From assembly GCF_019112545.1 (NCBI RefSeq), contig NW_025064901.1:500880-564879 (forward strand): a stretch of DNA of 64,000 nt, given 5' to 3'. This document shows, piece by piece, positions 8,879 through 64,000 of the stretch. Made by a program: the position numbers and the translations under genes. Source of the stretch: Guyanagaster necrorhizus. Lineage: Eukaryota > Basidiomycota > Agaricomycetes > Agaricales > Physalacriaceae. The first letter of the stretch is position 1, and every line of letters begins with the position of its first letter. The notes beneath the pieces were generated by a model that made no database searches, was not told the DNA's origin, and was given only the letters and a program-made list of their open reading frames with translations.

Positions 8879-9019
8879 ATATCCCCTCATTAACATTCTT
8901 GTCCTCAAGAGTGCAGATCCTGATGCCTGATAGAAAGACACATAGTGAAAAAAAATTTTATCTTATAAGAGTTTTGTCTTTCAGATTTCAACCATTATCC
9001 TCTTCAGCTTGCAACAATA

Positions 9020-10205
9020 TCAACTCTTGTCATCCATTGTCATTCAAAAACTCCTGATCCTTTGATGTGAGAATCCACCTCTGATAGCCTTCAAGAGGCC
9101 AAGGAATTATTTCATTTGGAGTGTCAAACTGCAGAGGATAAATATGCAGAGGCCATAGAGGTTCATTTGGAATAGAAGAGAGAGTAAGAGAGAGAGGAGA
9201 AGGCCCAGATGGACCATATGATCTAAAAAGCATAGAAAAGGGAGTAGAAGAAGGAATTGGAAAGAAAGAGGAAAGAGGTCTGGCAGGCAGCAGAGAAGCA
9301 GATGAAAGAGATGGAGGAGGCTGCAAAGGAGATGGCTTGAAAGAAAGCCATGGAGAGAAAGGCTACAGAGGCTGCAGTGAGGGCAGCAGCTGCATTGGAG
9401 ATGCAGCAGGAGGAGTTGGTGATAAAGGGCAGATTGCAGATGACCTCCATAGAGGCTATCAATTATAGACTGTGTCAAATTCTAGTGGCTCAGTTCAGCT
9501 CTGGACTCAGCCTTTATTTCAAAAAAGTGACTGGTTATACATTTCTGGAGTCTGATGATGAGCAAGACAAGGGAACTGAGGGAGATGATAAATTAGAAGA
9601 GTTGGAGAGAAGGTTGCAAGGCCAGCAGAGAGTGAAGAGAAGTTGAGTAGTGAAAGTAAGTGTCTTATTGTTTCTAATTGGTTTTAACTTAGTTTCATTT
9701 TTAAGAAGTTGCATGTGCTGTTGTCAAGATGGCACACACTACTATATGCATCTAGCAACTAAAGGCATTAGTCATAGATGGACTTGTGCCTGTTGTAAGG
9801 TCAAGAAAACCACTTGTTTGTTTAACAAAGAGATCATTGCAAATGAAATGATTAGTGGTGTGGAGATCTCTGCCAGCCTCCATGAACTTTCAAAATTAAT
9901 ATGCAAGTTGATATATCACATGAACAAGTTAACAGATGAGATAGTGGATGTCCATAGTACTGTGGTGGATCTTTATAATGATTATAGATCAGATGATATA
10001 TTATCTCCTTTGGAGTTGTTTTTTGAAGTCTGAGTTAGAGATGTGAAGAGAGGCTTATCTGATCTTTAAGAATGAAAAGGATTAGGAGATGAAGGACTTG
10101 CAGGCAGTGATGTTGAAAAGGCTGAATGAAGATATAAAGGAGTTGAGAAAGTGAAGGAAAGGCTCAAGTTTTAGTGTAGATTCATTAGATGCTAGATCTT
10201 TGTGA
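9020..10205 (+). pseudogene. Antisense gene of family B, copy in B-3 (six-cysteine cluster protein)
   Basis: Plus-strand gene lying between the 3' LTR and the convergent pol. Exon 1 (from about 9020; start unclear) encodes an acidic, Glu/Arg/Ala-rich, probably coiled-coil segment. The intron starts with gtaagt at 9656 and is 49 bp in the other copies; here the acceptor seems shifted or damaged (9704/9705). Exon 2 gives CMCCCQDGTHY and then TCACCKVKKTTC, i.e. C-x2-C-x6-(C changed to Y) and C-x2-C-x6-C, followed by a helical, acidic tail. A segment before the intron is missing compared with B-1 and B-2. The function is not recognised; the cysteine spacing recalls the fungal Zn(II)2Cys6 cluster, with a slightly longer linker. 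Confidence 0.6.
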
Positions 10206-11448: not shown

Positions 11449-12399
11449 TTACTCTCTCTTTAAGGCAATCATTCTTGATTGCTCAGAGCAGCTCAGAAAA
11501 AAGAGATCATGCTTCATCTTTGCCATCAATTTCAGTGGAAACATTATTAATGTGGTCAAGAAAATGAGGTTGATCAACAAAGATTTCAGCAGCTAAGTCA
11601 TCTTTCTCTCACTATATAAATAGCTTTTTGCATTCAAAGGGAGTTCAGTCTTTTCTGAAAGGCAATTATTGCATATAGATATAGTCTGACTTGTTAAACA
11701 TTGATTGATCCAATAGAGCAAGGTTGATAGCTGTCAGAGAATTTTGGCATGCCCAATATTTGGCAATGAGAGTCTTTGCATGTGGAAGATCTTTTTCTGC
11801 ATACTACTGGTTTTTCTCATTGCCATACTTCTTGAAATAAACTAAAAACCACTGTTTCCTGTATCAAATCTTATCATCAAAAATAGCATTAATTTTATAT
11901 TTATCTTCATCATCAACTACCACAGGTTTAGATAGTGGTGATTTCTGCTGATTAGAGAATTCAGCTGGTTGGAATGGTTTGAGCAAGGCTTCATTGAAGA
12001 CTGGATGGATTTTTTCAGTCTTTGAAATAGACAATTCATATGCCTCATCATCTATTTTCTTTGTGATCTTAAAAGGCTCTCTATATTTGTTATTCAGCTT
12101 TTTCATGGTCCTATCTGTCTTTAGGTTTTTTAGATCTAGCATGACTTGATCTCTTGGTTGATACTCTTTTTCTGATGCTCTTTTCTTGTTATATATTTTT
12201 TTTATTGAGTCTGCTGCTTTTAGAAGTGCTTATTCTATCTTATTATGAATCTTTTCTATTTTAGTAGCAAAATCTTTTGCTTGAAGTACTTGACTGTCTC
12301 TTTGTGAGGGGTTCATTCCAGTGTTAGAGTATACACCAGTGTTTACAAAGAATAGGCTAAAGCCTGTGGCAGAGTTTTCTTGGTTGTTATAAGTGAATC

Positions 12400-12900
12400 T
12401 GTTACACACATGCTACTGGCCTCCATGTCACCTCAACCAACCATGGATTCAATCATGGAAACCCACCAGACTCTGGCCACTCTCTATTACCTATTAATTT
12501 TATTTTCACCATTATTATTTCACATCCATATTTCATATTGTAATATCTAGACCCCAAACTTGATAGTGAATATTGACATCAGAACCCAATGGAACTCGAC
12601 TTGGAATTAGCTACCATTAGTATATAAAGCCATGTATAACTATTGTAACTACTCAGTTTGAATATCAACTTGGATAAGCCATCTACACTTTGCACTCACT
12701 TCAACTCCTCTCTACCTCATCTGTCAGATTCTGCTCTGAAGAATATTCCTGTTTGCTTCTCTGATGAAACTCTGTTCTGTCCATCCAGATCCTTGGGCTC
12801 TGACTCAAGGGTGACATTGCCAATAGCTTCATTGACACTCATGCACTCTGCTGAACTCTGTGCATGCACTCAAGCCCACTTGATTGGCATGTTTCTAACA
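12400..12900 (+). repeat. Solo LTR of family B in the integrase of C-1
   Basis: A complete 501-bp LTR, TGTTAC...TAACA, flanked by a perfect 5-bp duplication GAATC (12395-12399 and 12901-12905). Family C integrase sequence continues on both sides, so a full element inserted and later lost its body by LTR-LTR recombination. It is in plus orientation, opposite to B-1, B-2 and B-3. A coding-like frame inside it recurs in the LTRs of B-1 and B-2; I regard it as a by-product of LTR conservation. Confidence 0.93.
12621..12665 (+). promoter_or_regulatory. Family B LTR TATA box and self-primer
   Basis: TATATAAAG at 12621-12629 is followed 34 bp later (first base to first base) by AGTTTGAATAT at 12655-12665. 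That 11-mer is the reverse complement of the sequence found two bases inside the internal region after the B-1 and B-2 5' LTRs. The TATA-to-start distance is what a core promoter needs, so the transcript 5' end and the primer would coincide. Confidence 0.6.
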
Positions 12901-23798: not shown

Positions 23799-24207
23799 TG
23801 TTATGATTTTTCTATTTTCTCCTTTAAATTAACTCCTATTTATACTTAGTCAGAGTGTCTATTCCAGTGCTTAAGACTGTGAGACTGGCTTAGTCATTAC
23901 AACAAGCTGAGTCTATTATTGTCTTTCAATATGACAATGACATTTGATAATATACAATAATTCTTTTGTAGATAATAGTAATACTTAAGGACAACAAGCA
24001 CAATGACTTGGACAGACACAATAAGTAGTAGTATATTTATCTTGATAGATGAGTAGTATATAAGTAGAATAGCTCTTGCTGTATAACCTCAGCTTCAAGC
24101 TGAAGTCTATTCATATCACTTCACTTTCAAGCTTTCTTGCAAAAGGCCTTGAAGTATATTAGTCAACAGATACAAACAGTAGACTCAGATATAACTGTAT
24201 GAATATG
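23799..24207 (+). repeat. Family A 3' LTR of A-4, first part
   Basis: Begins tgttatg directly after the polypurine tract. It is interrupted at 24207/24208 by B-1 and resumes at 33943. It contains the TATA/self-primer block (about 24050-24110). Together with 33943-33994 the LTR is about 461 bp. Confidence 0.9.
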
Positions 24208-24705
24208 TGTTAAGAACATGCCAATTGAGTGGGCTTGAGTGCATGCACAGAGTCCAGTGGAGTGCATGGGTGTTGACAAAGCTATTGGCAATGTCACTCT
24301 TGAGTCAGAGCCCAAGGATCTGGATGGACAGAATGGAGTTCCATTAGAGAAGTGAACCAAAATGTCCTTTGGAGTGGAATCTGACAAACAAAGTAAGGAG
24401 GAGTTGAAGTGGGTGTGAAGTGTAAATGGCTTATCCAAGTTGATATTTGAACTGAGTAGTTATGATGATGTATATAGCTTTATATACTAATGGTAGCTAA
24501 TTTCAAGTCAGGTTCTATTGGGTTCCAGTGTCAGTATTCATTACCAAGTTCAGGGTCTAGATATTACAATGTGAAATACAGATGTGAAATGATAATGGTG
24601 AAATGAAATTAGTAGATAATGGGAAGTGGCCAGAGTCCAGTGGGTAGCATGATTGGATTCATGGTTGGTTGAGGTGACATGGAGGCTGGCAGCATGTGCA
24701 TAACA
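24208..24705 (-). repeat. B-1 3' LTR
   Basis: tgttaag...gcataaca on the plus strand. The sense polypurine tract CTAAGGGGGAGATAC lies directly next to it (24706-24720). The self-primer copy near 24440-24452 reads AGTTCAAATAT in sense, while the 5' LTR of the same element keeps the ancestral CG (AGTTCGAATAT). Confidence 0.93.
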
Positions 24706-24849
24706 GTATCTCCCCCTTAGCATTCTTGCTCTCAAGAGCACAGATCCCAATGGCTAGTGGGGCCACATGAAAGATTGTTGATGACTATGAGAGTTTTGCA
24801 GCTTGAACTGAAACCACTATCTTTACCTATGTTATCACTCACACACTCC

Positions 24850-26145
24850 TGAGCCTCTGGTGAGGGGATCTACTCCTGATGGCCCTGAAGAAGCCAAGGA
24901 ATTGTTCCATCTGGAATGGTGAACTGCAGAGGAAGAATATGTGGAGGCCATAGAGAGCCATTTAGAATGGCAAGGGGAGTGAGAGCAGAAGGAAAGGGCT
25001 CATGTGGACTATATGGTCCAGGAGTCATGAAAAAAGGAGCAGAGAGAGGAATTGAAGAGAAAGAGAGAGGAGGTTTAGCAGGCCACAGAGGTGGACAAAG
25101 GAGGCAGAGGAGATGTTGAGAGAGGCAGCTCAGAGAGAGGCTGAGGAGAGGGAGGCTGTGGAGGCAGCAGCGAGAGCTGAGGCTGAGGAGGTAGAGCCAG
25201 AGAGGATGGTTACAGAGGATGGATTGCAAATGACTCCTGCAGAGGCCATTGATTTCCAGCTGCATCAAGTGTTGGTGGAATAGTTTAATCCTGACTCTGG
25301 TCTTCACTTTAAGAAGGTGACTCACCATGCACCTTCAGGGTCCAATGATGAGCAGGACAAGGGGACTGAGAGGGACAATGAGTCTGAGGAATCTGAGGGG
25401 ACTCTGAAGAGGAGGAAGAGAGTATGAGAGGAGAAGAGAAGGGTAGCGGTTCTGGCAGAGAAGGGCTGTAAATGCAAGTTCAGATTGAGGAGTATAGTAG
25501 ATGGCAGTAGAACAGAGATGGTCATTAGCTCCAAAAAGCAGGCAAAGTTAGAAGTGGTAGAACTGGCAGAGAGTGAAGAATTGTTGGATGGTGAAAGTAA
25601 GTGTCTTGGTTTTCTTTTATGGCTTAACTTAGCTTTTGTTTTTAGAGAGTTGTGTATGCTGTCATCAAAATGGTGCATGGTGTTATGCATGACTGGTAAC
25701 TGAAGGCATCAGTTGAGGGTGGACTTGCTCTCACTGCAAGGTCAAGAAAACTATCTGTTTGTTCAACAAGAGTATCATTATGAGTAAGGTGATCAGCAGT
25801 GTAGAGGTCTCTGCTGGTCTCTACCAACTTTCAAAATTGATACACAAGTTGATGCATCATGTGGATGAGTTGGCAGATAAGGTGGCAGATGTTTGTGATA
25901 CTGTGGCAGGTCTTTAAGATGACTATAGTTCCGATGATATGTCATCTCCTTTAGAGCTGTTTTTGGAGTCTGAGATAGAGGCCTGAAAGAAGGCCTGACT
26001 GATTTTCAAGGATGAGAGGGATCAGGAGGTGGAGAATCTTTGAGAGGTGATGTTGAAGGGGCTGGATGAGGATATAAAAGAGTTGAAGGAGCAGGGGAAG
26101 AGTTCAGGTTCTGGTGCAGACCCATTGGGTTCTACTTCTTTGTAA
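24850..26145 (+). pseudogene. Antisense gene of family B, copy in B-1 (six-cysteine cluster protein)
   Basis: A two-exon plus-strand gene convergent with pol. Exon 1 (about 24850-25596; start codon not certain) encodes an acidic region with many Glu, Arg and Ala, broken by stops, then a basic patch (LKRRKRV) and EELLDGE. The intron is 25597-25645 (gtaagt...tttttag, 49 bp, branch-like cttaac). Splicing keeps the frame and yields SCVCCHQNGAWCYA, then TCSHCKVKKTICLFNK: two C-x2-C-x6-C motifs 14 residues apart. A helical acidic tail ends at TAA 26143-26145, about 120 bp from the end of pol. The in-frame stops look like Arg, Gln or Trp codons hit by C-to-T type changes. I do not recognise the protein; a DNA- or RNA-binding regulatory or accessory role is only a guess. 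Confidence 0.68.
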
Positions 26146-26265
26146 AATATTTTGTATGAAATATATATAGAAAAGAGCATCAGATATTGGTAGTAGAGAA
26201 AAAAAAAATGTAAATACAAGATTTTGATTTTGAAAGTGTAAAAAAAGTGATTGAAATAGTAGTAA

Positions 26266-29200
26266 TTAGTGGTTAGAATTAAAATGATAAGGTGGAGCAC
26301 TGGTGGTGTCCAGAGTAGCATTGTATTAGGAATGAGATGTTTGAATGACTTTGAACAAGGATCCTAGTTTGTCTGGGTATCAGTGGTGGAATTCTTCAAT
26401 GAATTCATTGGCAGAGAACTCAGAGGCCAGTAACTAAGCAAATTCTTCATTGGTACCTTTGTATCCTAGCCACTGGATTTTGTATAGCAGTGGGTAGCAA
26501 AACTAGTAATCCAGTTTAGAGTCAAGGATTTGGGCTATTTCAAAATGTTCTTCTCCATTGACTTTGACTGGAGGCAGTAGTGGTTGGATTCAGTTAGAAA
26601 TAGTGTTTTCTTCTATGAGTTCTAATTGTGACATATGGAAGATGGGGTGAATGGACTGGAGATCTGGCAGAAGCCTCAGGGTAAAAGAGTGAGTACCAGG
26701 TTGGGCTATGATTTTGAAAGAACTAAGATATTTTTTTGAGAATTTTCTGATTAGGCAGATGGTTTTGATATGTTTGGAGCTGAGATAAGCCTTATCCTCC
26801 ACTGTAAATAGGGGTGCCAGAATCCAATGCTTGTCTGCTTGGATCTTGTAGTGAGACTGAGCTTCAAAAATTTCATTCTTCAGTAATTGATGAAGTTTAT
26901 CAAGGTTGACTGCAAAATCTTAGGCCCAAGTGGAGGCGATGTCTCTTTCAAAGTGAACAGTGATGTTGGGGTGGTAACTCTTGTTAGTGAAAAATAGGGA
27001 AATTCTAGTAGATGTGTTAGAGGCATTATTATAGGCAAATTCAGCAATGGGTAAGAGAGTGTCTCAGTTGTCCTGCTGGTAGGAGCAGTAGATGTGGATG
27101 TATTATTTCAGAGTTTGGTTTGCTCATTCTGTTTGTCTATTGGCCTCCAGATGATAACCAGAGGTAAGGTGGAGTTTTATATCAAGGGCTATAGCTAAGG
27201 CACAAGTAAATTGGGAGACAAATTCAGAGCCACAGTCAGATATGATGTGACTGGATACTCCATGTTTGAAGAATACATGGATAAGGAAAAGTTGAGTGAG
27301 CTCCATAGAGTTAATAGTGTCATAAGTGGGAATGAAGATGGCTTGCTTGCTAGCTCAGTCTATGACTACTAAGATAGTGGTAAATCCATTGGAGTCCAGT
27401 AGTTGTTCAGTAAAGTCTATGGAAATGGAATCCTATGGCCATTCAGAAACTGGCAGAGGTTTGAGTAACCTATAGAGGTGGTGTCTAGATGCCTTATTGC
27501 ACTCACAAACTGTGCAGGACTTAACATAGTGTCAGACATATTCATATATCTTTAGCCAAGTATAGTTCCACTGGACTAGTTCTAATGTCTGGTTTTGACT
27601 AAAGTGGCCTGCCAAAATATGGTCATGATTGTTCTATAGTATACAGAGATGGAGATCTCTAGACTCCAGAACATAGATGTGGCCTTCAAAGTGAAGAATG
27701 TCTGATTCATCAATGGACCACTGAGAGGGGGAGGATTCCAAAGTGGCCTTAGCCTGGTGGAGGCCATTGGAGGATGTAGAGTCAGAAGATTGTGCTTATT
27801 TGATATCAATGTGGAGCTTGTCAATGTCTATGATGACACTGGCTCAGAGGGTAGAGCCTTCAAGGTAGGTTGCATAGAGTGATGCAGAAAGTTATTCTTG
27901 GGTGAATATAGGTTAGAAATTATGAGGGTTGACTTGGGCATATTGGCTATCTCCCTTTTTAGGATAGACATCTCATCATCTAGTGAGCGTATCTGGTTTT
28001 CCACCAAGTTTTTCAGAGTGGAAACAAATTACTAGATTGAACTGGAATAGGTATTCAGACCAGTAGACTTGTTGGTGAGTTAGAATCTTAGTGATGCCAA
28101 AGTATTCAAGATTCTTGTGGTCTGTTATGACATTGATGAAGTCCACAGAGCCTTCAAGATAGTGCTGCTGAAGAGGATCTAAGCATGTGCAAAGTGAAAA
28201 CAGATACAGCAGAGTGTTATCCACTGCCCACACTCACACCAACACACACACAAAACTCTTAGTTTGTGGGGGGATTATAATGTGATAAAAGTAGCAATCA
28301 ACAAATATAATTGTCTTCTTCAATGAGATCACAGTGTGTGAATAGTAATAGTATGCTTATAACAGTCTGAGGTCTTTCTAAATCTCAAAGCTTTTTGTTT
28401 TATCAAAACAAGAGGTGGCAACTAGTGTTGTCAGGCCTCAAGGCAAAGGGTACTGCAGTTCAATACAATACATTGAAACACCCCTTCAAAGCTCTCAAAT
28501 AGTCCCAAGCACAGCTCAGATCAACTCAAATCTCTAACACACACAATACACAACTCAAAGCTTCACACTTTAAGCAGAAACCAATCACAAACACATCCAC
28601 AAGTGACCAAAAGTGCAGATCTCTGTTCACAAGTTTCCAAACCAATTGTAAACCCACAGGATTCAAATCTATGTGATCCAGAGACACAAACACAATAAAA
28701 CCCTGTCTGACAGACTAAAGAGTTTGAACCTCTGCCACCTGTAGTGCCATGTGTCACCAATATCTCAAAAACTCAAGATGATGCTCTTCAGACACTGCTC
28801 TCTTATTTTCAGGTTAAAGCACAATCCAAAACCTCTTATCAAACTGGGCTCAAGTCCTTTGCAAGCTTTAATGTCTTGCTTAGTTTTCACAGCACTCTTA
28901 ATGATATCAATAATCAGTTTATTCTCTCACCTGGGGTTACTAACACAAACCCAGAGCTAGAGTGCAAGACTTTCTGTGCTCAATACACTGCAACTGTGGG
29001 GGGTCAGAAACTCTCCCTCCCAGTCATACAATACTGTATTTAAATACTCTACTAGGATACTTACTAATACAATCCTACTATGGTATCCTCAAAGCATGGG
29101 ACTCTGTGCTGGATCCTGTGGGTATTATTCATGTGCATATCACAGTTACCACACTTATTCTCTTTCAGGCAATGACTGTACCCACTGTTTCTTCGCTAGC

Positions 29201-31900
29201 TGACATCAGCTAGCTGGCCTTGCCAGGTCTGCTTGCTTTCTTATTTCTCTGGTGACATCTCTGACATCAGTAAACTGTTCCAGACCCCTGGAGTTATTTC
29301 TTATGCCAGGAGCCAGTCACAATGGCTATGTTCTGCTTCTCTGTGTCCAACCAGTCATTCCATCTGACTCACTATATTTCTCAATATGATGTAGAGTCCC
29401 TCACTGTGTTATGCATGCTAAGGCACCATATATATGCATGCAAGGCTCAGGGCAGTACCCATGCTATTCATTCCTGGAGTAATATTCCTCTACTTGTTAG
29501 CTTGTTGTCATCTGTCTATTCCTTTGTTCAATACCCATTACTCAGATACCTTTCTTTGGGTCTCAGTTCTCTGTTCTAAGGCATATCCCATCAGAGCATC
29601 AATGGCTGTGCATCTTTGATTAATGTGATCAGACTTGCTGATTATATTTCGATCATAGTCTTTTTATTTTTAGCATGTTCTCTTGTAATAGTATTGGTGC
29701 ATTTAGGGCCAAGTGCTGGGATCTCACATGCAGCCTAACTCCTCTGATATTAGTCTGTTACTAGACCATACACTCTGCTTATTGTTACTTCAGTTTATCA
29801 TTATGATAGCTAGGTTTCTGTGCACTCTAGTCCTATTTTCTGTTACATGCTTACTGGACTGGAATGCAGTCTATGTATTCACAATTTTTGCAATTTTACA
29901 TGCCTGAACATAGAGAAGGCATATCACCACCAATGTTTAAAAGCTTCAAAAATGGTCAGAAGCTCCTTGTCATGAGTGTCATAGTTGAGTTTGGCATTGT
30001 TGGAGGCTCTGAGAGCAGAATGCAATCAGGTGAATTTCACCATCTTTGAGGTAGATAGAGAGGATAGCTGCAATGGCATAATCAGAGGTGTCAGTTTCCA
30101 CCACTATCTTTTGATCAGGAACCCAGTGAGTAAGGATGGAAGCATATGTAAAGGCCTGTTTTAATTCATTGAAGATAGCTAAGCAATTGTCATCAAATTT
30201 CCATAGAGTTTTCTTGTGGGTGAGTCATGTAAGAGGAATGATGATGTCACTATATCCATGTATGAAGCAACAGTAGAAGTTAGCAAAGCCAAGGAAGAAT
30301 TGGATATCCTTGACTTTTTGCAGCACTGGCCAGTCAACAATGGCCTTGACTTTTTCTTCAGACATGCAAAGTCCTTCAGATGATAGGATGTAGCCTAGGT
30401 ACTCCATAGAGTCCCAGTTGAATTTGCATTTGAAATCCTTGCAGTAGAGTCTATTAGCTTTAAGCCTGTGTAGGACCTCTTGAATATATTTCTGGTGATC
30501 TTCTAGGTTGTCAGAATATATGAGGATGTCATTGAGGTAGATTACTACTGATATGTTGAGCATGTCAGAGAATATATCATTCACAAATCATTAGAATGCT
30601 GCTGGAGCATTTGTGAGACCAAAAGGCATAACATGCCATTCGAAGAAACTATAATAGGTCTGGAAGGCTGTTTTCCATTTATCCCCCTTAGCTATATGAA
30701 CAAGATGGTAGACATGCCTAAAGTCGAGTTTGGTGTAGATGCATATGGAGTGGGTGGAGTCAAGGAGATCAGAAATGAGGAGGAGAGGGTAGTGATCTTT
30801 GTTGGAGACTTTGTTTAGGCTATGGTAGTTGATACAAAGTCAGAGTTCACTGGTCTTTTTCTTGACAAATAGAACTGGAGCCCCATGTAGAGAGTGAGAT
30901 AGAGTAATGAACCCATTGCACAGATTATCATCAATAAACTCTCATAGAGTCTTGAGTTCAGATTCTGAGAGAGAATAAATAAGTCCAAGTGGTAGAGATG
31001 TTCCTTCCTCAAGGTTGATTTTGAGGTTGTATGGCCTGTGTTCAGGTAGCTTTTCAGAGAGGATATTGCTGAAGATGTCTGCAAAATCATGGTACTCTAC
31101 TGGCACTGATAAAAGATCTGCTGGTTCCATGGATATAGCTTTGGCTCCAATATTAGGCAAGGAAGGCTGCAGTGTGAACTGCTGAGTGCCTTCTTCTGCA
31201 CTGGCTCAGACAAATGTGACAGTGAATATGATGGAGATCTTTGGATGTGCTTTCATAGTAAAAGACTCTGAGGGAGGATAGAAGTAGATGGGTTCATATG
31301 GGAATAGAGTCTGCCAGCTATCTGGAGTTGATTTGGAATAGGGTGAAGTCCCAGGAGTTGGACTGATAGAGTCTGGTGGGCACAGAAGTCTCAGATTTGA
31401 GCTGGAAGGCTCAGAAAGGGATAGACTGTTGTCCTATAGGCACAGAAGTCTCTGGGATGCAGTAGAGGCTGCAGAATTGGTTGGAGTAAGATCCTAGTAG
31501 CTTGAGCAGAAAATGATACTGTTCTCAGCCTAGTCAATCAGTGGATTGTAGCAGGAGAGCCAGTTGTATTCTAGGACAAGATTGCAAGATGAATCCAGAG
31601 GAGTGACATAGAAGTCAATGGAGAAGGTGTCTCCAGATGGGAAACAGATGAGGATAGTTGTGATTTGAGATATATGGCTCCTGATGAAGCCATCAAATAA
31701 TTGAAGTTGCACACTAGGGATGGTTTTAATGGAAATTTCATTGGCAGCTACATACTTAGTGTCAACAAAGTAGTGGCTAGAGCCAGAATCAATAAGGGCA
31801 GGAAAATGCAGAATGATACAAGTTGGGGAACCATCAGGTTCTGTGGTAGTCAGTAATTCTGCTGAGAGAGGAATGTGAAAGGAGTGATTGAAAAGGGATG
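26266..31900 (-). pseudogene. pol: Family B pol (B-1), split by X-1
   Basis: Minus-strand order: protease (about 31720-31830, DSGSSHYFVDTKY), RT (about 30225-31160, [13 protein letters not shown] with one catalytic Asp changed to Asn), RNase H (interrupted by X-1 between 28168 and 29927; the tail reads [11 protein letters not shown]), integrase (zinc finger about 27480-27700; core with IISDCGSEFVSQF, 27124-27306), C-terminal FSKKYLSSFKII (26590-26802) and a chromodomain-like segment YKIQWLGYKGTNEEFA (about 26420-26510). Stops and indels are scattered along it. The nearest known type is a fungal chromovirus. Confidence 0.87.
28169..29926. mobile_element. Element X, copy X-1: 1.76-kb insertion of unknown class
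   Basis: Comparison with B-2 (40250-40265) shows exactly where foreign sequence enters and leaves the RNase H region of B-1. The insert starts TGAAGAG and ends ATATCA, so its ends can be read as TG...CA. The flanks ctgc (28165-28168) and ccac (29927-29930) differ only by transitions and would be a decayed 4-bp duplication; a 5-bp reading (ctgct/ccacc) is also possible. Its first 410 bp match 63576-64000. I see no transposase, RT or inverted repeats of any length. It may be a solo LTR of a large-LTR element or a non-autonomous element. Confidence 0.75.
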
Positions 31901-31979
31901 TTGCATTGAGAGTGATGACCTCCAGTGTGCAAATAGAGTCAATGCAACCCTGAACTCACATGGAGGGAACAGGGTTGCT

Positions 31980-33400
31980 TCCTAGTTTTCTGACTCTGTC
32001 AGAGCCAGTTCCATAGGAGCAGTGTCGACTTCTGCTACATGACCCTTGATGGAGGCTGCTGTCTTCCACTTGTTGCAGTCCTTGGTCTTGTGTTTGGCTC
32101 CACAGAACATGCAAAGGTTGTTCTAGTGCCAGTGGTTTTTTTTTTTCTGAGTAAGATGGCCATCTTTATCTAGCTTGTTAGCATAGGGCTTAAGGGTGGT
32201 AGATTTCAGTGTGGAGCTGGAGTCTAAGGAAGATGTGTTAGACCCCTTGGATTTGGAGTTGGGGAATTTATTGTCCTAGTTTTCACAGGCAATTTCAGTC
32301 TTCTGGGTCCAGTAGTGAGCATCAAGTTCTTAGGCAAGAAAGTGCATATCATGAAGGTTGTTTGGCTTCCCATGGTGTGCCATGTCATTCTTGATACAGG
32401 TGCAGAGGCCACAGTAAAAGGCATGGTGGAGGGAGTTATCTCTATACCCAATTTGTGAAGTGTACTGGTTGAATTGGACTATATACTTCATGATCCAGTC
32501 TTTATCATGCATCTGAAGGTGTTTTAATGCATCTTCAGCATCTCCAATAGCATCAAAGAGGCTGAAGTTGCTATGAAGTTCATCTAGAAAAGCTGCATAG
32601 GAGAATTGTCAGACTGGTGGATTCCACAGATTGGGGTTAAGAATGTCTGGTTCAAACCAGTTAAGCACAGTGCCAGCCAGGAATGAAATGGCATAGTTAA
32701 CCTTGTTAGCATCTGTTGCAAATATGGTAGGTCTGTTGTTGAAGTTCAACTGAAGAGAGACAATGAAAGCCTTCAGTTTATGAGGGTTAGAGCCATCAAA
32801 TGGTTCTAGTTCCTTGACTTTGGTATGAGTAGTGGCTGGTTTAGAGTTGTTGAGGGAAGTGGAGACTCGTCATAACAGGTTCATGAATTCTAGGAATATA
32901 TCCTGCTGATTTGGATTGTTACTTTCTGCAGGACCATCAGAGCTGTTTGGGTTATTGAGACCACCTGGACCTCCTGGATCTCTTAAACCTCCTGGTCCAC
33001 CTGAAAAAGAGTTTGGTGGATTACCACCTGGTTCCCATCAGATGAGAGTATGAGTAGAGATGTCTGGATTCCCATGCATGTTGTCTAGGGATAAGAGGTC
33101 TATTGGAGAGTCAGTTTGGGCACCATATATCAGGCTGGCCTGTTGGACTCTATTGGTTGAGATGCTGGTGGCATTGAAAGAGTTAGGAGAATCATCATAA
33201 TTAGGTTGGTGGGCAGTGAAGCTAGAGTGATTGTAGGTTTCCTTATGGAAAGATTGTCCTTCACTGGAGGCCGATCTGAAAAGGCCTGGTTGTTTCTTTG
33301 AGGTGGAGGCCAGAATGTCTTCCATAGAAAACATGTTTGGATGGGTGGGCTGAGTTTGTTTGAGATTGGTTTCTGTGGGTTCAGTAAATGTGGTGGACAT
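31980..33400 (-). pseudogene. gag: Family B gag (B-1)
   Basis: Starts with a real ATG at 33400 (MSTTFTEPTETNLKQTQPTH), about 30 bp after the self-primer site. The N-terminal part is open for 120 codons. Capsid-like pieces lie at 32224-32512. A CCHC-like knuckle (sense CMFCGA...DC in B-2) maps to about 32080-32120 here. It has decayed by stops in the middle. The knuckle spacing is C-x2-C-x3-H-x4-C in the B-2 copy, one residue shorter than the usual C-x2-C-x4-H-x4-C. Confidence 0.75.
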
Positions 33401-33426: not shown

Positions 33427-33437
33427 AGTTTGAATAT
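33427..33437 (-). promoter_or_regulatory. Self-primer binding site of B-1
   Basis: The sense sequence ATATTCAAACT begins two bases after the 5' LTR end. It is complementary to AGTTTGAATAT in the family B LTR (see 12655-12665); in this element's own 5' LTR the matching 11-mer keeps a CG (33675-33685). Eleven nucleotides is the primer length described for Tf1. Confidence 0.65.
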
Positions 33438-33439
33438 AC

Positions 33440-33937
33440 TGTTAAGAATGTGCTAATTGAGTGGGCTTGAGTGCACATATAGAGTCCAGCAGAGTGCATG
33501 GATGTTGATGAAGCTATTGACAACATCACTCTTGAGTCAGAGCCCAAGAATCTGGATAGACCAAATAGAGTTCTGTTAGAGAAGCAAACCAGAATGTCTT
33601 TCAGAGCAGAATCTGATGGACAAGATAAGGAGGAGTTGAAGTGGATGCGAAGTGTAGATGGCTTATCCAAGTTGATATTCGAACTGAGTAGTTATAATGA
33701 TATATATGGCTTTATATACTAATGGTAGCTAATTCTGAGTCAGATTCCATTGGGTTCTAGTGTCAGTATTTGCTACCAAGTTTGGGGTCTAGATATTACA
33801 ATGTGAAATACAGATATGAAATGATAATGGTGAAATGAAATTAGTAGGTAATGAGAAGTGGCTGGAGTCTAGTGGGTAGTGTGATTGGATTTATGGTTGG
33901 TTGAGATGACATAAAGGCCAGCAGCATGCATGTAACA
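33440..33937 (-). repeat. B-1 5' LTR
   Basis: 498 bp, the same length as the 3' LTR, tgttaag...tgtaaca. It is followed by the right half of the ATATG duplication. It keeps a few CpGs (33648, 33680) that the 3' LTR has lost. Confidence 0.93.
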
Positions 33938-36094: not shown

Positions 36095-36280
36095 AATTGA
36101 ATAAGCTATTTTTATTAATAATAGGATCTATCTTAAAGACCAACTGAGGAAACTTTTAATATACAAATCTAAATACAAGGTTAAACCTATGTCATGAACT
36201 CCTTCAGTAGTGCTAAAATAAGCTATCTATATAGCTCTATCTCTCTGAAGCTCCATGATCCAGTATATATACTCAATACC
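36095..36280 (+). other. Family A leader of A-5, second part
   Basis: 186 bp between the solo LTR and B-2. It matches the reverse complement of the A-1 leader around 4080-4170 (the segment that recalls ttttatttataa). Confidence 0.6.
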
Positions 36281-36782
36281 TGTTAGAAATATGCTAATTG
36301 GGTGGATTGAGTGCACATGCACAGACTAGTGGAGTGCATAGACATCAATAAAGCTATTGGCAACATCACCCTTGAGTCAAGCCCAAGAATTTGAACAGAT
36401 AGAATGGAGTTCCATCAGAGAAGCAAAGAGAAGTGAATATCCTTCAGAGCAGAATCTGACAGATAAGATAGGGAGAAGTTAGAGTGAGTACAAGATGTAG
36501 ATGGCTATTCAAGTTGATATTTGAACTGAGTAGTTATAATAGTTATATATGGCTTTATATACTAATGGTAGCTAATTCTGAGTCGGGTTCCATTGGATTC
36601 TGATGTCAATATTCACTACTGAGTTTAGGGTCTAGATATTACAATGTAAAATATGGATGTGAAATGATAATGACAAAAATAAAATTAATAGGTAATGGGG
36701 AGCAGACAGAATCCAGTGAGTTTCCATGATTGAATCCATGGTTAGTTGAGGTGACATGAAGGCCAGCAGAATATGCATAACA
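36281..36782 (-). repeat. B-2 3' LTR
   Basis: tgttagaaat...gcataaca, followed by the polypurine tract complement (gtatctctctgttagcattc). Confidence 0.92.
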
Positions 36783-36899
36783 GTATCTCTCTGTTAGCAT
36801 TCTTGCTCTTAAGAGCACAGATTCCAATGGCCAGTGGGGCTATATAGAAGATTGTTGGTGGCCATGGGAACTTTTTGCAACTTGGTCAGATACCACCAC

Positions 36900-38246
36900 C
36901 ATCATCCTAACTATATTGCCTCCCACTGTATATCATTGCTCATGTACTCCTGAGCCTTTAGTGAGAGAACCCACCTCTGATGGCTCTGAAGAGACCAAGA
37001 AATTATTTTCTCTAGAATGGCAGACCATGAAGGAAGAGTATGCAGAGGCCATAGAAGTCTACTTAGAGTGGAAAAGAGAGCAGGAGAGAGAGAAGAAGGT
37101 CCAGGCAGACTGTGGTCTGAGAGGTATGGAGAAAGAAGCAGCAAGAGGGGTTGGAGAAGAAGAAGAAGAAGGTCTGGTGAGTGACAGAGAAGTGGACAAA
37201 GAGGGCAGAGGAGGCATTGAGAGAAGCAGCTTAAAAGAAAGCTGAGGAGAGGGAGGCTGTAGAGGCTGCAGTGAGGGCTGAGGCCTCAGAGGTAGAGCAG
37301 AAGAGAATGGTTATAGAGAATAGATTGCAAATAACCTCTATGGAGGTCACTGATTTTCATCTGTATCAAGTGCTGGCAGAATAGTTTGGTTCTGGCTCTG
37401 GTCTTTGCTTCAAGAGAGTGACTGGTTATACACCTTCAGAGTCTAATGATAAGCAGGATAAGGGGACTGAGAGAAATGATGAGTCAAAAGAATCTGAGAA
37501 GACCCTGAAGAGGAGAAAGAGGATGCAAGAGAGAAAGAGGAGGACAGCAGGTCCAGCAGAGAAGGGCCATAAATGCAAGTTCAGATTGAGGAGTGTAGTG
37601 GATGGCAGTGGGACAGAGATAGTTGCTAGTTTCAAAAAGCAGATGAAGTTGGAAGTTGTAGGGCTGGCAGAGGGTGAAGAGTTGTTAGATGGTGAAAGTA
37701 AGTGTCTTGGTTTTCTTGTGTGGTTTGACTTAGCTTTTGTTTTCAGAAAGTTATGTGTACTATCATCAAGATAGTGCATGGTGTTATGCACAACTAATAA
37801 CCAAAGATGCTGGTCGAGAATAGACTTGCTCTTGCTGCAAGATCAAGAAAACTGCTTATTTGTTCAATAAGAGTGTCACCACAAGTGAGGTGATCAGCAG
37901 TGCAGAGGTCTCTGCTGGCCTCCACCAAATTTTAAGATTAATTCACAAGTTGATGCATCATGTAGACAAGTTGATAGAAGAGCTGGTGGATGTCAGCAGT
38001 ATGGTAGCAGGTCTCTAGGATGACTATGGTTCTAATGACATATTGTCTCCCTCAGAGCTGTTTTTGGAATCTGAGATGGAGGCCTGGAAGAAGGTTTGAC
38101 TGATTTTCAAGGATGAGAGAGATCAGGAGGTGAAAGATCTTCAGGAGGTGATATTGAAGAGACTGGATGAAGATATAGAAGAGTTAAAGAAGTAGGGGGA
38201 GAGTTTAGGTTCCAGTGTGAGTCTGTTGAGTTCCACTTCTCTGTAA
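36900..38246 (+). pseudogene. Antisense gene of family B, copy in B-2 (six-cysteine cluster protein)
   Basis: The best-preserved N-terminal part of the three copies: 36916-37245 is open and encodes KKLFSLEWQTMKEEYAEAIE and a following Glu/Lys/Arg-rich, coiled-coil-like run. A second open piece, 37418-37774, holds a basic patch (LKRRKRMQERKRR) and EELLDGE. The 49-bp intron is 37698-37746 (gtaagt...ttttcag). Exon 2 reads SYVYYHQDSAWCYA, then TCSCCKIKKTAYLFNK: three of the cluster cysteines have become Tyr (TGT/TGC to TAT), again G-to-A type changes. The stop at 38244-38246 is convergent with pol. Intron position, intron length and cysteine spacing are the same as in B-1, which argues that this was a real, selected gene when the family was active. 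Confidence 0.7.
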
Positions 38247-38379: not shown

Positions 38380-41300
38380 GTAAGATGGAGTGCCAGTGGC
38401 ATCTGAAGTAGCATTGTATCAAGAATGGAATGATTGAGTGACTTTGGATAAGAGTCCTAATTTGCCTGGATATCAATGGTGAAATTCTTCAATAAATTTA
38501 TTGACAGAGAACTTAGAGGCCAGTAATTAAGCAAACTCTTTATTGATACCTTCATAGCCTAGCCACTGAATCTTATACAGCAGTGGGCAGCAGAACCAAT
38601 GGTCCAGCTTAGAGTTGAGGATTTGAGCTATTTTGAAATGTTCTTCTTCATTGACTTTAACTGGAGGTAGCAGTGGTTGAATTTAGTTAGGAAGGGTGTT
38701 TTCTTCTATAGGTTCCAATTGTGATATATGAAAGACTGGGTGAATGGACTGGAGATCCAGTGGAAGGCTCAGTGTGAAGGAGTGAGAACCAGATTGGGCT
38801 ATAATTTCAAAGGGACTAAGGTATTTCTCTGAGAATTTTCTGGTCAAGTGGATGGTTTTGATATATTTGGCACTGAGGTAGACCTTGTTGCCCACTGTAA
38901 ATAGGGACACTAGAATCTGATGCTTGTTTGCTTGAGCCTTATAATGAGACTGAGCTTTGGAAATTTCATTCTTCAGTATTTGATAGAGCTCATCAAGATT
39001 GACTGTGAAGTCTTGGGCTCAAGTGGAGGTGATGTCCCTTTCAGAGTAAACAGTGATGTTGGAGTGGTAATCTTTGTTAGTAAAAAATAAGGAAATTCCA
39101 GTGGATCCATTAGAGGCATTGTTGTAGGCAAATTCAACAATGGGTAGAAGGATGTCCCAGTTATCCTGTTGGTAGGAGCAGTAGATGCAGATGTATTGTT
39201 CTAGAGTTTGGTTTGTCTGTTTAGTTTGTTTATTAGCCTTCAGATAATAATCAGAAGTAAGGTGGAGTTCCATGTTAAGAGCTAAGGCTAAGGCATGAGT
39301 AAATTGAGAAATGAATTCAGAACTATGATCTGAAGTGATGTGACTGGATACTCCATGTTTGGAGAAGACATGGATAAGAAAAAGTTGGGCAAGCTCTGTG
39401 AAGTTAATGGTGTCATGAGTGGAGATGAAGATAGCTTGCTTGCTAGTCCAGTCAATGACTACCAGAATGGTGGTAAATTTATTGGAGTCTAGTAGTTGTT
39501 TAATGAAATCTATGAAAATAGAATTTTATGGCCATTCAGGAACTGATAGAGGTTTGAGTAGCCTATAGAGGTAGTATCTAGGTGTCTTGTTGCATCCACA
39601 AACTGTGCAGGATTTAACATAGTGTTGAACATATTCATGCATCTTTGGCCAGGTGTAGTCCTGTTGGACTAGCTCTAATATTTGATTTTGATCAAAGTGG
39701 CTTGCTAAAATGTGGTCATGATTGTTTTGAAGTATATAGAGATGGAGATTGTCAGAGTCTAGGATATAGATGCAGTCTTCAAAGCAGAGGATATTGGATT
39801 TATTAATAGACCACTGAGAGAGGGAGGATTCAGGAGTGACCTTAGTCTGGTGGAGGCTCTCAGAGTATGTAAGGTCGAACAATTATGCTTATTTGATATT
39901 GGTGTGGAGTTTGTCAATATCCATGATAGCATTAGTCCATAGGATAGGGCTCTCAAGATAGGTTGCATAGAGTGATGCAGAGAGTTGTTCTTAGGTGAAC
40001 ACAGGTTGGAAATTATAGGGGTTGACTTGGGTATATTAGCTATCTCCCTCTTTAAGGTAGACATTCCATCATCTAGTGAGCATATCTGATTTTCCACTAA
40101 GTTTTTCAGGGCAGAACTGAATTACTAGGTTGAACTGGGATAGATATTCAGACCAGAAGATCTGTCAGCAAGTTAGAATCTTAGTGGTGGTGAAGTATTC
40201 AAGATTCTTGTGATCTGTTATGACATTGATGGAGTCCATAGAGCCTTCAAGATAGTGCCACTAATATTTAAAGGCTTCAAAAATGGCTAGAAGCTCCTTA
40301 TCATAGATGTCATAGTTGAATTTAGCATTGTAGAGGCTTCAGAAGCAGAAAGCAATGGGGTGAATTTTGCTATCTTCAAGATAGATGAAAAAGATAGCTG
40401 CAATTGCATAATTGGAGGTGTCAGTTTCCACCACTATCTTTTGATCAGGGATCCAGTGGGTAAGGATGAGAGCATGTATAAAGGCCTGTTTCAACTTGTT
40501 GAAGGCAGTCAAGTATTTGTTATCAAATTTCCATGGAGTTTCCTTGTGGATGAGTTGTATAAGGGAAAGAACAATATCACTATATTCATGTATGAAGTGA
40601 TGGTAGAAGTTGGCAAAGCCAAGAAAAGATTGGATGTCCTTGACCTTTTACAGTATTGGCCAGTCAACAATGGTCTTGACTTTTTTTTCAGACATATGAA
40701 GTCCTTCAGATGATAGGATGTAGCTTAGGTATTCTATGGAATCCTAGTTGAATTTTCATTTAGAATCTTTGCAGTAGAGTCTATTAGCTCTAAGCCTATA
40801 TAGGACCTCACAAACATGTTTCTGGTGATCTTCCAGATTGTCAGAATATATGAGAATGTCATCAAAGTAGACTACTACTGATATGTCAAGTATGTCTGAG
40901 AATATATCATTCACAAATTGTTGGAATGCCACCAGAGCATTTGTGAGGCCAAAAGACATAACATACCATTCAAAGAAACTATAATGGGTTTGGAAGGCTG
41001 TTTTCTATTTGTTCTCTTTAGCTATGCAGATGAGATGGTAGGCATGTTGAAGGTCAAGCTTGATGTAGATGTGTGCAGAGCAGGCAGAGTTGAGGAGATC
41101 AGAAATGAGGGGAAGAGGGTAGTGAACCTTCTTGGAGATTTTGTTTAGGCCACAGTAGTCAACACAGAGTCAGAGTTCACTGGTCTTCTTCTTGACAAAT
41201 AGAACTAGAGCTCTGTGTGAAGAGTGGGACAGAGTAATGAACTCATTGTATAGATTATCATCAATAAACTCTCATAGAGCCTTGAGTTTGGATTCTGAAA

Positions 41301-42290
41301 GGGAGTAAATAGGTCCAAGCAGTAGAGATGTTCCTTCCTCAAGATTGATTTTGAGGTCATATGACTTGTGTTTGAGTAGCTTTTCAGAGAGAGTATCACT
41401 GAAGATATCTGCAAAATCATGGTACTCTATTGGCACTGATAAAAGGTCTGCCAGTTCTGTGGATGTGGCCTTGGCTCTAATTTTAGGCAAAGAAGACTGC
41501 AGTGTGAACTGCTGAGTACCTTCTTCTGCACTGGCTCAGACAAATGCAGCAGCAGATATGATAGAGATCTTTGGGTGTGCTTTTGTAGTAAAAGACTCTG
41601 AGAAAGAATAGGAATAGATGGATTCATATGGGAATAGAGTCTATCAGCTATCCAAAGTGGATTTGGAATAGGATGAAGCTCTAGAAGTTGGACTGATAGA
41701 GTCTGGTGGGCATAGAAGTCTCAGAATTGAGCTGAAGAGCTCAAAAAGGGGTGGACTGTTGTTCTATGAGCACAGAAGTCTCTGAGATGTGGTGAAGGCC
41801 ATAGAATTGGTTGGAGTGAGATCCTGATAGCTTGAGCAGAAAGTGATATTGTTCTCAGCCCAGTCAATCAGTGGATTGTAGCAGGAGAGCCAGTTGTATC
41901 CTAGGACAAGATTGCAAGATGAATCCAGAGGAGTGACATAGGAGTCAATGGGAAAGATATCTCCAGATGGAAAACAGGTGGAGATAATTGTGATTTGAGA
42001 TATATGGCTCTCAATGGAGCCATCAAATAATTGAAGTTGCACACTAGAGATGGTTTTAATAGGGATTTCATTAGCAGCTATATATTTAGTGTCAACAAAG
42101 CAGTGGCTAAAACCAGAGTCAATAAGGGTAAAAAAACATAGAATGATACAAGTTGGAGAGCCATCAGATTTTGTGGCAGTTGGTAATTCTGCTGAAAGAG
42201 GAATGTGGAAAAAGTGATTGAAAGAGATGTTGCATTGAGGGTGATGATCTCTGGTGTGCAAATAGAGTCAATGCAACTCTGAACTTGCAC
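38380..42290 (-). pseudogene. pol: Family B pol (B-2)
   Basis: Protease 41764-42261 ([19 protein letters not shown]); RT about 40600-41490 with [13 protein letters not shown] (40756-40959), both catalytic Asp kept; RNase H about 40100-40560; integrase zinc finger with CTVCGCNK (39526-39640) and core about 39020-39450; C-terminal FSEKYLSPFEII (38683-38910); chromodomain-like YKIQWLGYEG about 38530-38590. Frames are broken by stops but domain order is complete and uninterrupted. Confidence 0.88.
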
Positions 42291-42310
42291 AGAGAGAACA
42301 GAGTTGCTTT

Positions 42311-43699
42311 CTAGTTTTCTGACTCTGTTAGAGCTGACTCCACAGGAGCAGTGTTGACTTCAGCTGCATGATCCTTGGCAGAGGCTGCTGCCTTCCACTT
42401 GTTGCAGTCCTTGGTCTTGTGTTTGGCTCCACAGAACATGCAAAGGTTATTCTGGCACTGGTGGTCTTTTTCTTTCTGAGTAAGATGATCATCTTTGCCT
42501 AGCTTGTCAGCATAGGGCTTAGGAGTGGTAGATTTTGGTGTGGAGCTAGAGTCCAAGAAAGAAGAGTTAGACCCTTTAGATTTGAGGTTGGAGGATTGGT
42601 TGGAGACCTTATTGTCCTGGTTTTCATGGGCAATTTCAGTCTTTTGGATCTAGTAGCAAGCATCAAGTTCTTGGGCAAGGAAGCATATATCATGAAGATT
42701 GTTTGGCTTCCCATAGTGTGCCATATCATCCTTGATACAGATGCAGAGATCATAGTAAAAATCATGGTGGAGAGAGTTATCTCTATACCCAATTTATGAG
42801 GCATACTGATTGAATTGGACCATATACTTCATGATCTGATCTCTATTGTGCATTTGAAGATGTTCTAATACATCTTTGGTATCTCTGATAGCATCAAAGG
42901 AGCCAAAGTTGCTACAAAGCTCATCTAAAAAAGCTACATAGAAGAATTGTCAGACTGGTGGATTCTATAGATTGGGATTAAGAATGTCTGATTTGAACCA
43001 GTTAAATGCAGTGCTGGCCAGGAAGAAAATAGCATAGTTGACCTTGCTAGCATCTGTTGCAAATGTGATAGGTCTATCATTGAAGTTCAACTGAAGGGAG
43101 ATGATGAAAGCCTTCAGTTTATAAGGATTGGAGTCATCAAATAGTTTTAGTTCCTTGACTTTAATATAAATAGTGGCTGGTTTAGGGTTATTGAGGGAAG
43201 CAGAGACTCCTCATAACAGGTTCATGAATTCTAGGAATATGTCCTGCTAGTTTGGATTGTTGCTTCCTGTGGGGCTGTCAGAGCTGCCTGGGCTATTGAA
43301 ACTGCCTGGTCCTCTTAGTCTATCTGAAAAAGGGTTTGATGAGTTACCATCTGATTCCTGTCAGATAAGAGTATAGATAGGAGTGTCTTCATCTCTGCCT
43401 TCTGAGTCTAGGCTGTCTGAATTCCCATGCATGTTGCTCAGAGATAAGGAGTCTATTAGGGAGTTGGTAGCATCAAAAAGATTAGGAAAATCATCATAAT
43501 TAGATTGGCAGGCAGTGAAGCTGGAGTGATTGTAGGTTTCCCTATAAAAAGGTTGTTCTCCACTGAAGGCTGATCTGAAAAGGCCTGGTTGTTCTTTTGA
43601 GATGGAGGCTGAGATGTCTTCCATAGAAAACATGTTGCAATGGGTAGGCTGGGTTTGTTCAGAATTGGTTTCTGTGGGTTGAGTAAATATGATAGACAT
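42311..43699 (-). pseudogene. gag: Family B gag (B-2)
   Basis: ATG at 43699, 28 bp after the self-primer site; the opening residues MSIIFTQPTETNSEQTQPTH match B-1. The nucleocapsid end (42311-42556) contains LCMFCGAKHKTKDCNKWKAA, a knuckle of form C-x2-C-x3-H-x4-C. The middle has stops. Confidence 0.78.
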
Positions 43700-43726: not shown

Positions 43727-43737
43727 AGTTTGAATAT
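43727..43737 (-). promoter_or_regulatory. Self-primer binding site of B-2
   Basis: Sense ATATTCAAACT two bases after the 5' LTR, identical to B-1. Confidence 0.65.
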
Positions 43738-43739
43738 AC

Positions 43740-44241
43740 TGTTAGAAACATGCCAATTGAATGGGTTGAGTGTATGCATGGAGACCAGTGGAGTGCATAG
43801 GCATCAACAAAGCTATTAGTAATATCACCTTTGAGTCAGACCTAAGGATTTGAATAGATAGAATGGAGTTTCATTGAAGAAGCAAAGAGAAGTGAGTATC
43901 CTTCAGAGTGGAATCTGATGGACAAGGTAGGGAGAAGTTGGAGTGAGTATAAGATGTAGATGGCTATTCAAGTTGATATTTGAACTGAGTAGTTACAATG
44001 GTTATACATAGCTTTATATACTAATAGTAGCTAATTCTGAGTCAGATTCTATTGGGTTCTGATGTCAATATTTGCTACTGAGTTTAGAATCTAGATATTA
44101 CAATGTGAAATATGAATGTGAAATAATAATAGTGAAAATGAAATTAATATATAACAGGGAGTGGGCAGAGTCTGGTGGGTTTTCATGATTGAATCTATGG
44201 TTGGTTAAGGTGACATGGAGGCCAGTGGCATGCATATAACA
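43740..44241 (-). repeat. B-2 5' LTR
   Basis: 502 bp, tgttagaaac...atataaca. Equal in length to the 3' LTR. Confidence 0.92.
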
Positions 44242-44246
44242 ATATC

Positions 44247-63575: not shown

Positions 63576-64000
63576 TGAAGAGTACCTGAGTGCGCGCAAG
63601 GTGAAAACGGATACAGCAGAGCGTTATCCACTGACCACACTCACACCAACACACACACAAAACTCTTAGTTCGTGGGGGGATTATAATGCGATAAAGTAG
63701 TATTCAACAAATGTAATTGTTTTCTTCAATGAGATCACAGTGCGTGAACAGTAATAGCGCGCTTACAACAGTCCGAGGTCTCTCTAAGTCTCAAAGCTTT
63801 TTGTTTTATCAAAACAAGAGGTGGCAACTGGTGTTGCCGGGCCTCAAGGCAAAGGGTACTGCAGCTCAATACAATATGTCGAAACACTCTCTCAAAACTC
63901 TCCAAATCGGCCCAAGCACAGCTCAGATAAACTCTAATCTCTAACACACACAATACACAACTCAAAGCTTCACGCTCTAAGCAAAAACCAATCACAAACA
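63576..64000. mobile_element. Element X, copy X-2 (left end; continues past the window)
   Basis: From tgaagag at 63576 to the window end the sequence matches 28169 to about 28610 (X-1) base for base apart from mostly CpG-to-TpG/CpA differences. X-2 keeps many CpGs (for example gtgcgcgcaa where X-1 has atgtgcaa), so it is as young as A-8. Shared internal landmarks are an acacacac run and gtggggggattataat. The left end coincides with the left end of X-1, which supports a defined element boundary. If the length equals X-1, it should end about 1.3 kb beyond the window. Confidence 0.75.

Follow-up and report, generated by a model that had tools for sequence, protein, structure and literature searches.

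The window analysed here, a 64,000-nucleotide stretch of Guyanagaster necrorhizus contig NW_025064901.1 (positions 500,880 to 564,879), contains three copies of one family of long terminal repeat (LTR) retrotransposons that are read on the minus strand, and in each of them a gene on the plus strand, opposite to pol, adjoins the 3' LTR. Throughout the genome this antisense gene is a regular component of a Ty3/Gypsy chromovirus family, and its reading frame is under purifying selection. As anticipated in the original prediction, which was made from the window sequence alone, the gene lies in the same position and on the same strand between pol and the 3' LTR in all three copies, and combines a charged amino-terminal region, basic patches, an intron, two C-x2-C-x6-C half-clusters separated by a linker of 14 residues, and a helical tail. 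What is upheld of the interpretation is that the retrotransposon bears a protein gene in antisense, interrupted by an intron and encoding a conserved cluster of six cysteines; the accompanying suggestion of membership in the Zn(II)2Cys6 family is not.

Distribution of the antisense gene in the genome

The genome searched comprises 53.3 Mb in 109 contigs and contains the 64-kb window. With a 108-residue piece of exon 2 as the query, the best 150 of 254 candidates were scored, all at E<=1e-3. At least 85 of these 150 gene places have an integrase on the opposite strand, 643-1551 nucleotides (nt) away, and none has a same-strand integrase within 3 kb among the integrase matches listed. Seen from the integrase side, at least 76 of 106 listed integrase places have an antisense gene match nearby (these 106 and 20 further listed places were compared with the gene places, and the counts from this comparison are lower bounds). 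The other 30 of the 106, which have no antisense match among the best 150 of 254, may represent either real loss or incomplete match lists.

An alignment of 56 rows was assembled from 53 genomic copies and the three window copies; top-scoring loci were taken first and then copies with long or stop-free frames, a non-random choice that leans toward less-decayed copies. Its reference is the copy designated L041, and insertions relative to L041 are dropped from the reference-length alignment. Fifty-five of the 56 rows extend into LTR or pol sequence (L051 does not clearly extend into either). Intact clusters are present in less-decayed copies (for example at L041 2699-2806 and L042 2032-2139), and the six-cysteine pattern occurred 0 times in 40 simulated 64-kb sequences. 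Exon 2 is open throughout, for 165 codons to the common stop, in 23 of 55 rows; neither exon contains a stop in 11 of 56 rows, as counted in an alignment that drops insertions; and three copies (L040, L041 and L042) have single open frames of 461-487 residues that read through a 51-nt intron.

Gene structure and the copies in the window

Two in-frame ATG codons, about 50 and 115 nt inside the LTR edge, are candidate starts: the inner one is ATG in 40 and ATA in 9 of the 56 rows, and the other, 63 nt upstream, is ATG in 41 and ATA in 10. Exon 1 encodes a Glu/Lys/Arg-rich region followed by conserved basic stretches. The predicted intron is present in all 55 rows with data, with GTAAGT at the 5' site in 52 of 55 and AG at the 3' site in 50 of 55. 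Its natural length, taken from the raw rows because the reference-length alignment drops insertions, is 49 nt in 29 rows, 51 in ten, 48 in nine, 52 in five, and 50 and 54 in one each. These differences are not multiples of three, yet both flanking exons stay in register, a pattern that is hard to explain unless the intron is spliced; splicing is therefore inferred. The stop codon is at the identical place in all 51 rows with data.

The gene can be followed through each window copy, the copy at 36,900-38,246 being the one singled out by the original prediction (the named copy):

36913..37697, plus strand: exon 1 of the named copy, decayed, placed by alignment to the 55 other rows; both candidate start codons are now ATA
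37698..37746, plus strand: predicted intron of the named copy, 49 nt, GTAAGT...CAG (GT at 37698, AG ending at 37746)
37747..38246, plus strand: exon 2 of the named copy, with the cluster (three of six cysteines left), predicted coiled-coil helix, second helix and stop
24829..25596, plus strand: exon 1 of the second window copy, placed by mapping to other copies; ATG kept
25597..25645, plus strand: predicted intron of the second window copy, placed by alignment
25646..26146, plus strand: exon 2 of the second window copy, six cysteines kept, stops in the linker; last base approximate owing to a one-base indel at the stop
9017..9655, plus strand: exon 1 of the third window copy, more divergent; the start position is now ATA
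9656..9704, plus strand: predicted intron of the third window copy, 3' site decayed to AA
9705..10205, plus strand: exon 2 of the third window copy, five of six cysteines kept, the third now Tyr

In-frame stops number 10 in the copy at 9017-10205, 12 in that at 24829-26146 and 8 in that at 36913-38246, and the cysteines kept number five, six and three of six, respectively. No stop-free six-cysteine cluster (linker 5-20) turned up when the 64-kb window was scanned. Thus the named copy shows the family pattern, as had been claimed for it, but its cluster is not intact: with eight stops in the frame, only C3, C4 and C5 remain. Integrase matches on the minus strand adjoin two of the three window gene copies. 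The third window copy is among the more divergent rows, with 74.1% mean identity to L041 (all rows, 72-94%).

Selection on the reading frame

Only transversions were counted, in order to sidestep CpG decay, and internal branches were kept apart from terminal ones. On internal branches the two exons together have 107 nonsynonymous (N) and 56 synonymous (S) transversions, a ratio of 0.34 (P=7e-10); the ratio is 0.21 for exon 2 (23 N, 19 S; P=3e-6) and 0.39 for exon 1. When the exons are read in the five other ways, four have internal-branch ratios of 1.33-1.64, and only the mirror frame, which shares third positions, is below 1 (0.65). In the gene's own frame the spacer has N/S of 1.37. A simpler count by alignment column is in agreement: shared transversion columns fall at codon positions 1, 2 and 3 in numbers of 43, 26 and 61 (columns 611-1403 and 1455-1951; P=0.0009), against 19, 18 and 16 in the spacer and 35, 38 and 47 for singletons of the exons. 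Per 100 nt, exon 2 has 0.8 deletions, exon 1 has 3.6, the intron 11.8 and the spacer 17.4.

Several of these figures weigh against so simple a picture. Terminal branches also have N/S below 1 (0.52 overall, 0.45 in exon 1, 0.66 in exon 2), and the difference expected between the two kinds of branch stands out in exon 2 alone (0.21 versus 0.66, P=0.011), being absent in exon 1 (0.39 versus 0.45) and weak overall (P=0.068). The other readings of the spacer range from 0.70 to 1.77. The LTR, too, has few deletions (2.7 per 100 nt, below exon 1), and 15 of the 28 exon-1 deletions are not multiples of three (13 are). Many deletions are probably losses after insertion; for this reason they are weaker evidence than the substitutions, and deletion counts alone do not prove coding. 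Across the genome-wide copies the frame is nevertheless conserved with N/S well below 1, and the cysteines are kept in younger copies, which leaves the original proposal of a maintained gene standing.

The six-cysteine cluster and the predicted protein

The cluster has the spacing 2-6-14-2-6. Cysteine occupies its six positions in 53 of 55, 50 of 55, 48 of 55, 53 of 56, 56 of 56 and 52 of 56 rows, and every one of the 21 losses among 333 cells is Cys-to-Tyr, as expected from C-to-T/G-to-A decay. The reference copy has two further cysteines that are not conserved; one of them, three residues after C3, is Cys in 21 of 55 rows and provides an internal contrast. Residues of the RQDGAR/HQDGAW type lie between C2 and C3, and a basic run (K-x-K-K) lies between C5 and C6. 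Further conserved basic stretches are SPKK-x-AKLEV and an LERRKR run, which are presumably nuclear signals.

The first helix after the cluster is a predicted coiled coil, with hydrophobic residues at 92% of a/d positions versus 19% elsewhere (heptad figures are the best of seven registers). AlphaFold models both helices following the cluster, with a predicted local distance difference test (pLDDT) score above 80 at residues 61-80, the middle of the first helix. The strongest of the weak family matches of the antisense protein is Telomere_reg-2, in one copy, at E=0.0035 and below its cut-off.

Relationship to zinc-cluster factors

The original prediction compared the cluster with the fungal Zn(II)2Cys6 type, with a usual linker of 5-12 residues. 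In that type the cysteines follow C-x2-C-x6-C ... C-x2-C-x6-8-C, basic residues lie between C2 and C3, and a coiled coil for dimerisation commonly, though not universally, follows. The antisense protein resembles the Zn(II)2Cys6 factors (PF00172, Gal4 type) in having two C-x2-C-x6-C half-clusters and then a predicted coiled coil, and differs from them in its 14-residue linker, in the placement of basic residues in the second half, in the lack of a model match, and in being retrotransposon-borne. The suggested spacing therefore agrees in its six-cysteine half-clusters and departs in the linker (14 versus 5-12) and in the site of the basic run (C5-C6, not C2-C3). The protein has a Zn2Cys6-like layout but, given these two departures, is not filed as a member of that family.

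Searches for relatives point the same way. The Zn_clus model (PF00172), the check that had been proposed, matches none of ten window pieces and none of seven proteins from other copies at a threshold of E<=1, with filters that remove most matches above about 0.1. As a positive control, the same model finds 39 places in the G. necrorhizus genome, none of them within 5 kb of the best 150 gene places. Profile comparison with six aligned host Zn_clus genes, all of which carry the basic run between C2 and C3, yields a probability of 4.2% and a pairwise E of 0.0098 over 21 columns, in the second half only. A sequence search of the PDB gives nothing better than E=0.46, no Pfam or NCBIfam family scores above its cut-off, AlphaFold pLDDT is mostly below 60 across the cluster itself, a Foldseek search with this low-confidence model gives no fold match, and the second predicted helix has no clear heptad (43% versus 24%). 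The family label thus finds no support from Zn_clus, PDB, profile comparison or AlphaFold.

Against a set of 5.8 billion proteins, none of 7993 candidates scored with the full frame reaches E<=0.01, and none of 703 obtained with residues 320-485 reaches E<=1. Relatives of the integrase are found in this set, which indicates that mushroom proteins are covered, although an unannotated gene would still be missed. Exon 2 has no match in viral contigs, nor does the integrase, so that this collection is uninformative. No host source gene was found among the best 150 of 254 genome candidates, 53 of them examined as DNA, a search that could miss a distant relative.

The loci of 8 of the 39 host Zn_clus places were viewed and 10 more stretches were scanned; those seen look like ordinary zinc-cluster genes, and in one stretch (L067) the scan found no motif. 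In six others (L065, L066 and L068-L071) the frame opens right after a stop, at A-C-[AV]-[DEA]-[SA]-K-[IV]-K-C, and looks as if the cluster's first C-x2-C were divided by an intron.

The element carrying the gene

The elements in the window are delimited by the following features:

36276..36783, minus strand: 3' LTR of the element with the named copy (self-alignment with 43736-44245)
43736..44245, minus strand: 5' LTR of the same element (self-alignment with 36276-36783)
38480..43400 (approximate), minus strand: decayed gag-pol of the same element (integrase match at 38671-39513, contig positions 539550-540392; parallel to L041-L044)
24197..24706, minus strand: 3' LTR of the second window copy (self-alignment with the 5' LTR at 33428-33937)

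The LTR ends, as read from the edges, are TG...CA. Within gag-pol, 29927-32973 of the second copy matches 40258-43314 of the named copy by self-alignment. Pieces of L041-L044 match Ty3_capsid, Retrotrans_gag, RT_RNaseH, rve and SH3_Tf2-1 of Pfam over the cut-off, and Chromo below it (19.8 versus 25.1). By these sequence features (LTRs, gag, RNase H, integrase and a chromodomain-like end) the family is classed as a Ty3/Gypsy chromovirus. Its integrase has 2621 relatives in the 5.8-billion protein set, the best of which is 81% identical and comes from Armillaria ostoyae.

The LTR pairs are 84.8% identical in the named copy (73 transitions, 4 transversions), 85.7% in the second window copy (70 transitions, 3 transversions), 88.8% in the L042/L044 copy (53 transitions, 3 transversions) and 94.6% in the L041/L043 copy (LTRs of about 502 nt; 26 transitions, 1 transversion). 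In nearest-neighbour comparisons C is read as T in 22.8% of cases in CG context versus 4.3-8.3% in other contexts, and the observed/expected ratio of CpG is 0.00-0.03 in the three window copies versus 0.68-0.95 in L041, L059, L061 and L039. Decay of the repeat-induced point mutation type (at CpA), indicated by a first count, was rejected once the count was conditioned on the neighbouring base, and the decay is centred on CpG. The transition excess between LTRs fits such decay, and the few transversions between the LTRs of the window copies suggest that these copies are younger than they look.

Other repeats accompany these elements. The second window element is interrupted at 28166-29926 by about 1.8 kb not present in the named copy, and the match of 28189-28593 to 63596-64000 (90%) suggests that a repeat from another family is nested there. 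At 12399-12904 an LTR of the family that carries the gene, inverted relative to the three copies and some 2 kb past the gene of the third, may be a solo LTR or a remnant. Elsewhere in the genome, the L041/L043 copy seems to lie inside a Gypsy-like element of a different family, with opposite-strand pol-like frames on both sides (L041 453-1298, L043 4312-6942).

Possible function of the antisense product

The antisense product is proposed to be a dimeric, zinc-binding nuclear protein that binds the LTR of its own element and controls its transcription, a reading whose chances are judged to be about even. A promoter in the 3' LTR, reading inward, would make a short mRNA, and the intron would be spliced from this antisense transcript only; the genomic RNA being of the opposite strand, retrotransposition would leave the intron in place. 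The protein, with its cysteines binding metal (probably two zinc ions), would form a dimer, enter the nucleus through the conserved basic stretches, return to the LTR copies as a putative DNA-binding protein and adjust sense transcription there, as HBZ does in human T-cell leukaemia virus type 1 (HTLV-1). It would in this respect act like a zinc-cluster factor, and membership in that family is not claimed.

One lead toward a target is found in the LTRs of the L041/L043 copy, which contain four inverted pairs of the form CGG-n-CCG where 1.1 are expected (P=0.046) and five where 0.5 are expected (0 of 500 shuffles). Pairs with n = 9, 7 and 3 are at matching places in both of these LTRs, and other copies show, at some of the places, what CpG decay of such triplets would leave. 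The pairs were sought after the fact, and there are none in the E1 3' LTR or the L040 LTR; the excess is therefore taken as a post hoc lead and not as support of weight. A more specific version of the proposal is doubtful: that the gene is a fungal counterpart of HBZ, with an independently evolved fold, encoding from a spliced antisense transcript a zinc-cluster-type DNA-binding dimer that reads CGG-type inverted repeats of the LTR and regulates both the copies and nearby host genes.

Basic stretches, six cysteines and a coiled coil would suit any nucleic-acid or chromatin partner, and the product could instead be a cofactor of replication or integration (a nucleic-acid chaperone, or a factor for nuclear import or tethering of the pre-integration complex) rather than a regulator of transcription. 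Passages of PMC7264820 raise nuclear import of the pre-integration complex for antisense genes, but the integrase of the element already carries a Tf2-1-like SH3 domain and a chromodomain-like end, and production from a separate antisense transcript would make the dose of the product independent of gag-pol, an arrangement that would suit regulation better; the cofactor role is considered rather unlikely. The strong CpG decay of the copies implies that the family is likely under strong methylation, which a factor countering host CpG methylation or heterochromatin could relieve, but no methylation- or chromatin-related domain was found in Pfam searches of the gene pieces, and such an anti-silencing function is improbable. 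Similarly small is the chance that four of the cysteines build a zinc ribbon or treble clef (C-x2-C-x21-C-x2-C) for binding RNA or protein, with the remaining two incidental. A beta hairpin predicted with low confidence after the first C-x2-C and a non-significant similarity to ribosomal eL43 (E=3) are in keeping with such a fold, but C3 (48 of 55) and C6 (52 of 56) are conserved almost as well as the other four, and Tyr is the only residue that replaces them.

The gene might, finally, matter only as antisense RNA, or its frame might be a by-product of a sense-strand gene. Antisense RNAs with possible double-stranded RNA roles are described for other retroelements in passages of PMC7264820. 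However, the sense readings have internal N/S from 0.65 (mirror frame) to 1.64 versus 0.34, and the conserved ATG, splice sites and stop are those of the antisense strand, which makes this explanation very improbable.

Comparison with known antisense genes

Antisense genes between pol and the 3' LTR (aORF-3R) are described for gene23 of maize Grande, RIRE2 of rice and Retand of Silene in the portions available of PMC7264820 and PMC11963269, and antisense genes at the 3' position also appear in those of PMC8365987, PMC4227169 and PMC5987419. The function of these accessory genes is given as not known in passages of PMC7264820, and a nuclear or regulatory role is suspected there and in PMC11963269, as it is for the gene of G. 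necrorhizus. The plant genes differ, according to the same portions, in that Retand belongs to a non-chromovirus lineage and in having TRP28 or SMC-like domains.

Among fungi, Boty of Botrytis cinerea has an antisense gene, brtn (Zhao et al. 2011, as cited in passages of PMC7264820). Boty-like elements resemble the present family in their fungal host, in a gag-pol with a chromodomain at its end and in the antisense gene that lies between pol and the 3' LTR (portions of PMC4227169 and PMC7264820); the host of Boty is an ascomycete, and the likeness to brtn is one of position and strand. The original statement that no antisense gene with such a cluster was known must therefore be narrowed, genes at this position having been reported already. 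The word "zinc" is absent from the text of PMC11963269, and "zinc finger" and "intron" are absent from that of PMC7264820; in the parts of the literature covered there is no mention of a six-cysteine cluster or conserved intron in plant aORF-3R or Boty genes, and no earlier six-cysteine antisense gene came to light among the entries listed by searches of the open-licence literature.

The stop-free rows, the selection signature, the conserved cluster, the intron and a predicted target, the element's own LTR, make the role of the gene directly testable. Should it prove to encode a DNA-binding regulator, its sites would be spread over the host genome as a network made up of the many LTR copies, and the usual picture of such elements, in which gag-pol is enough, would have to include a regulatory gene as well.

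HBZ, from an animal retrovirus, belongs to the bZIP proteins; it has a dimerising coiled coil and is not known to contain a six-cysteine cluster. Like the gene described here, HBZ is antisense, with a 3' LTR promoter and a nuclear product (portions of PMC10186651 and PMC11963269), promoter and nuclear entry being predicted in the case of G. necrorhizus. Antisense accessory genes thus have precedents among plant Gypsy elements and in Boty of fungi, and the present gene adds to them a variant with a six-cysteine cluster and a predicted intron.
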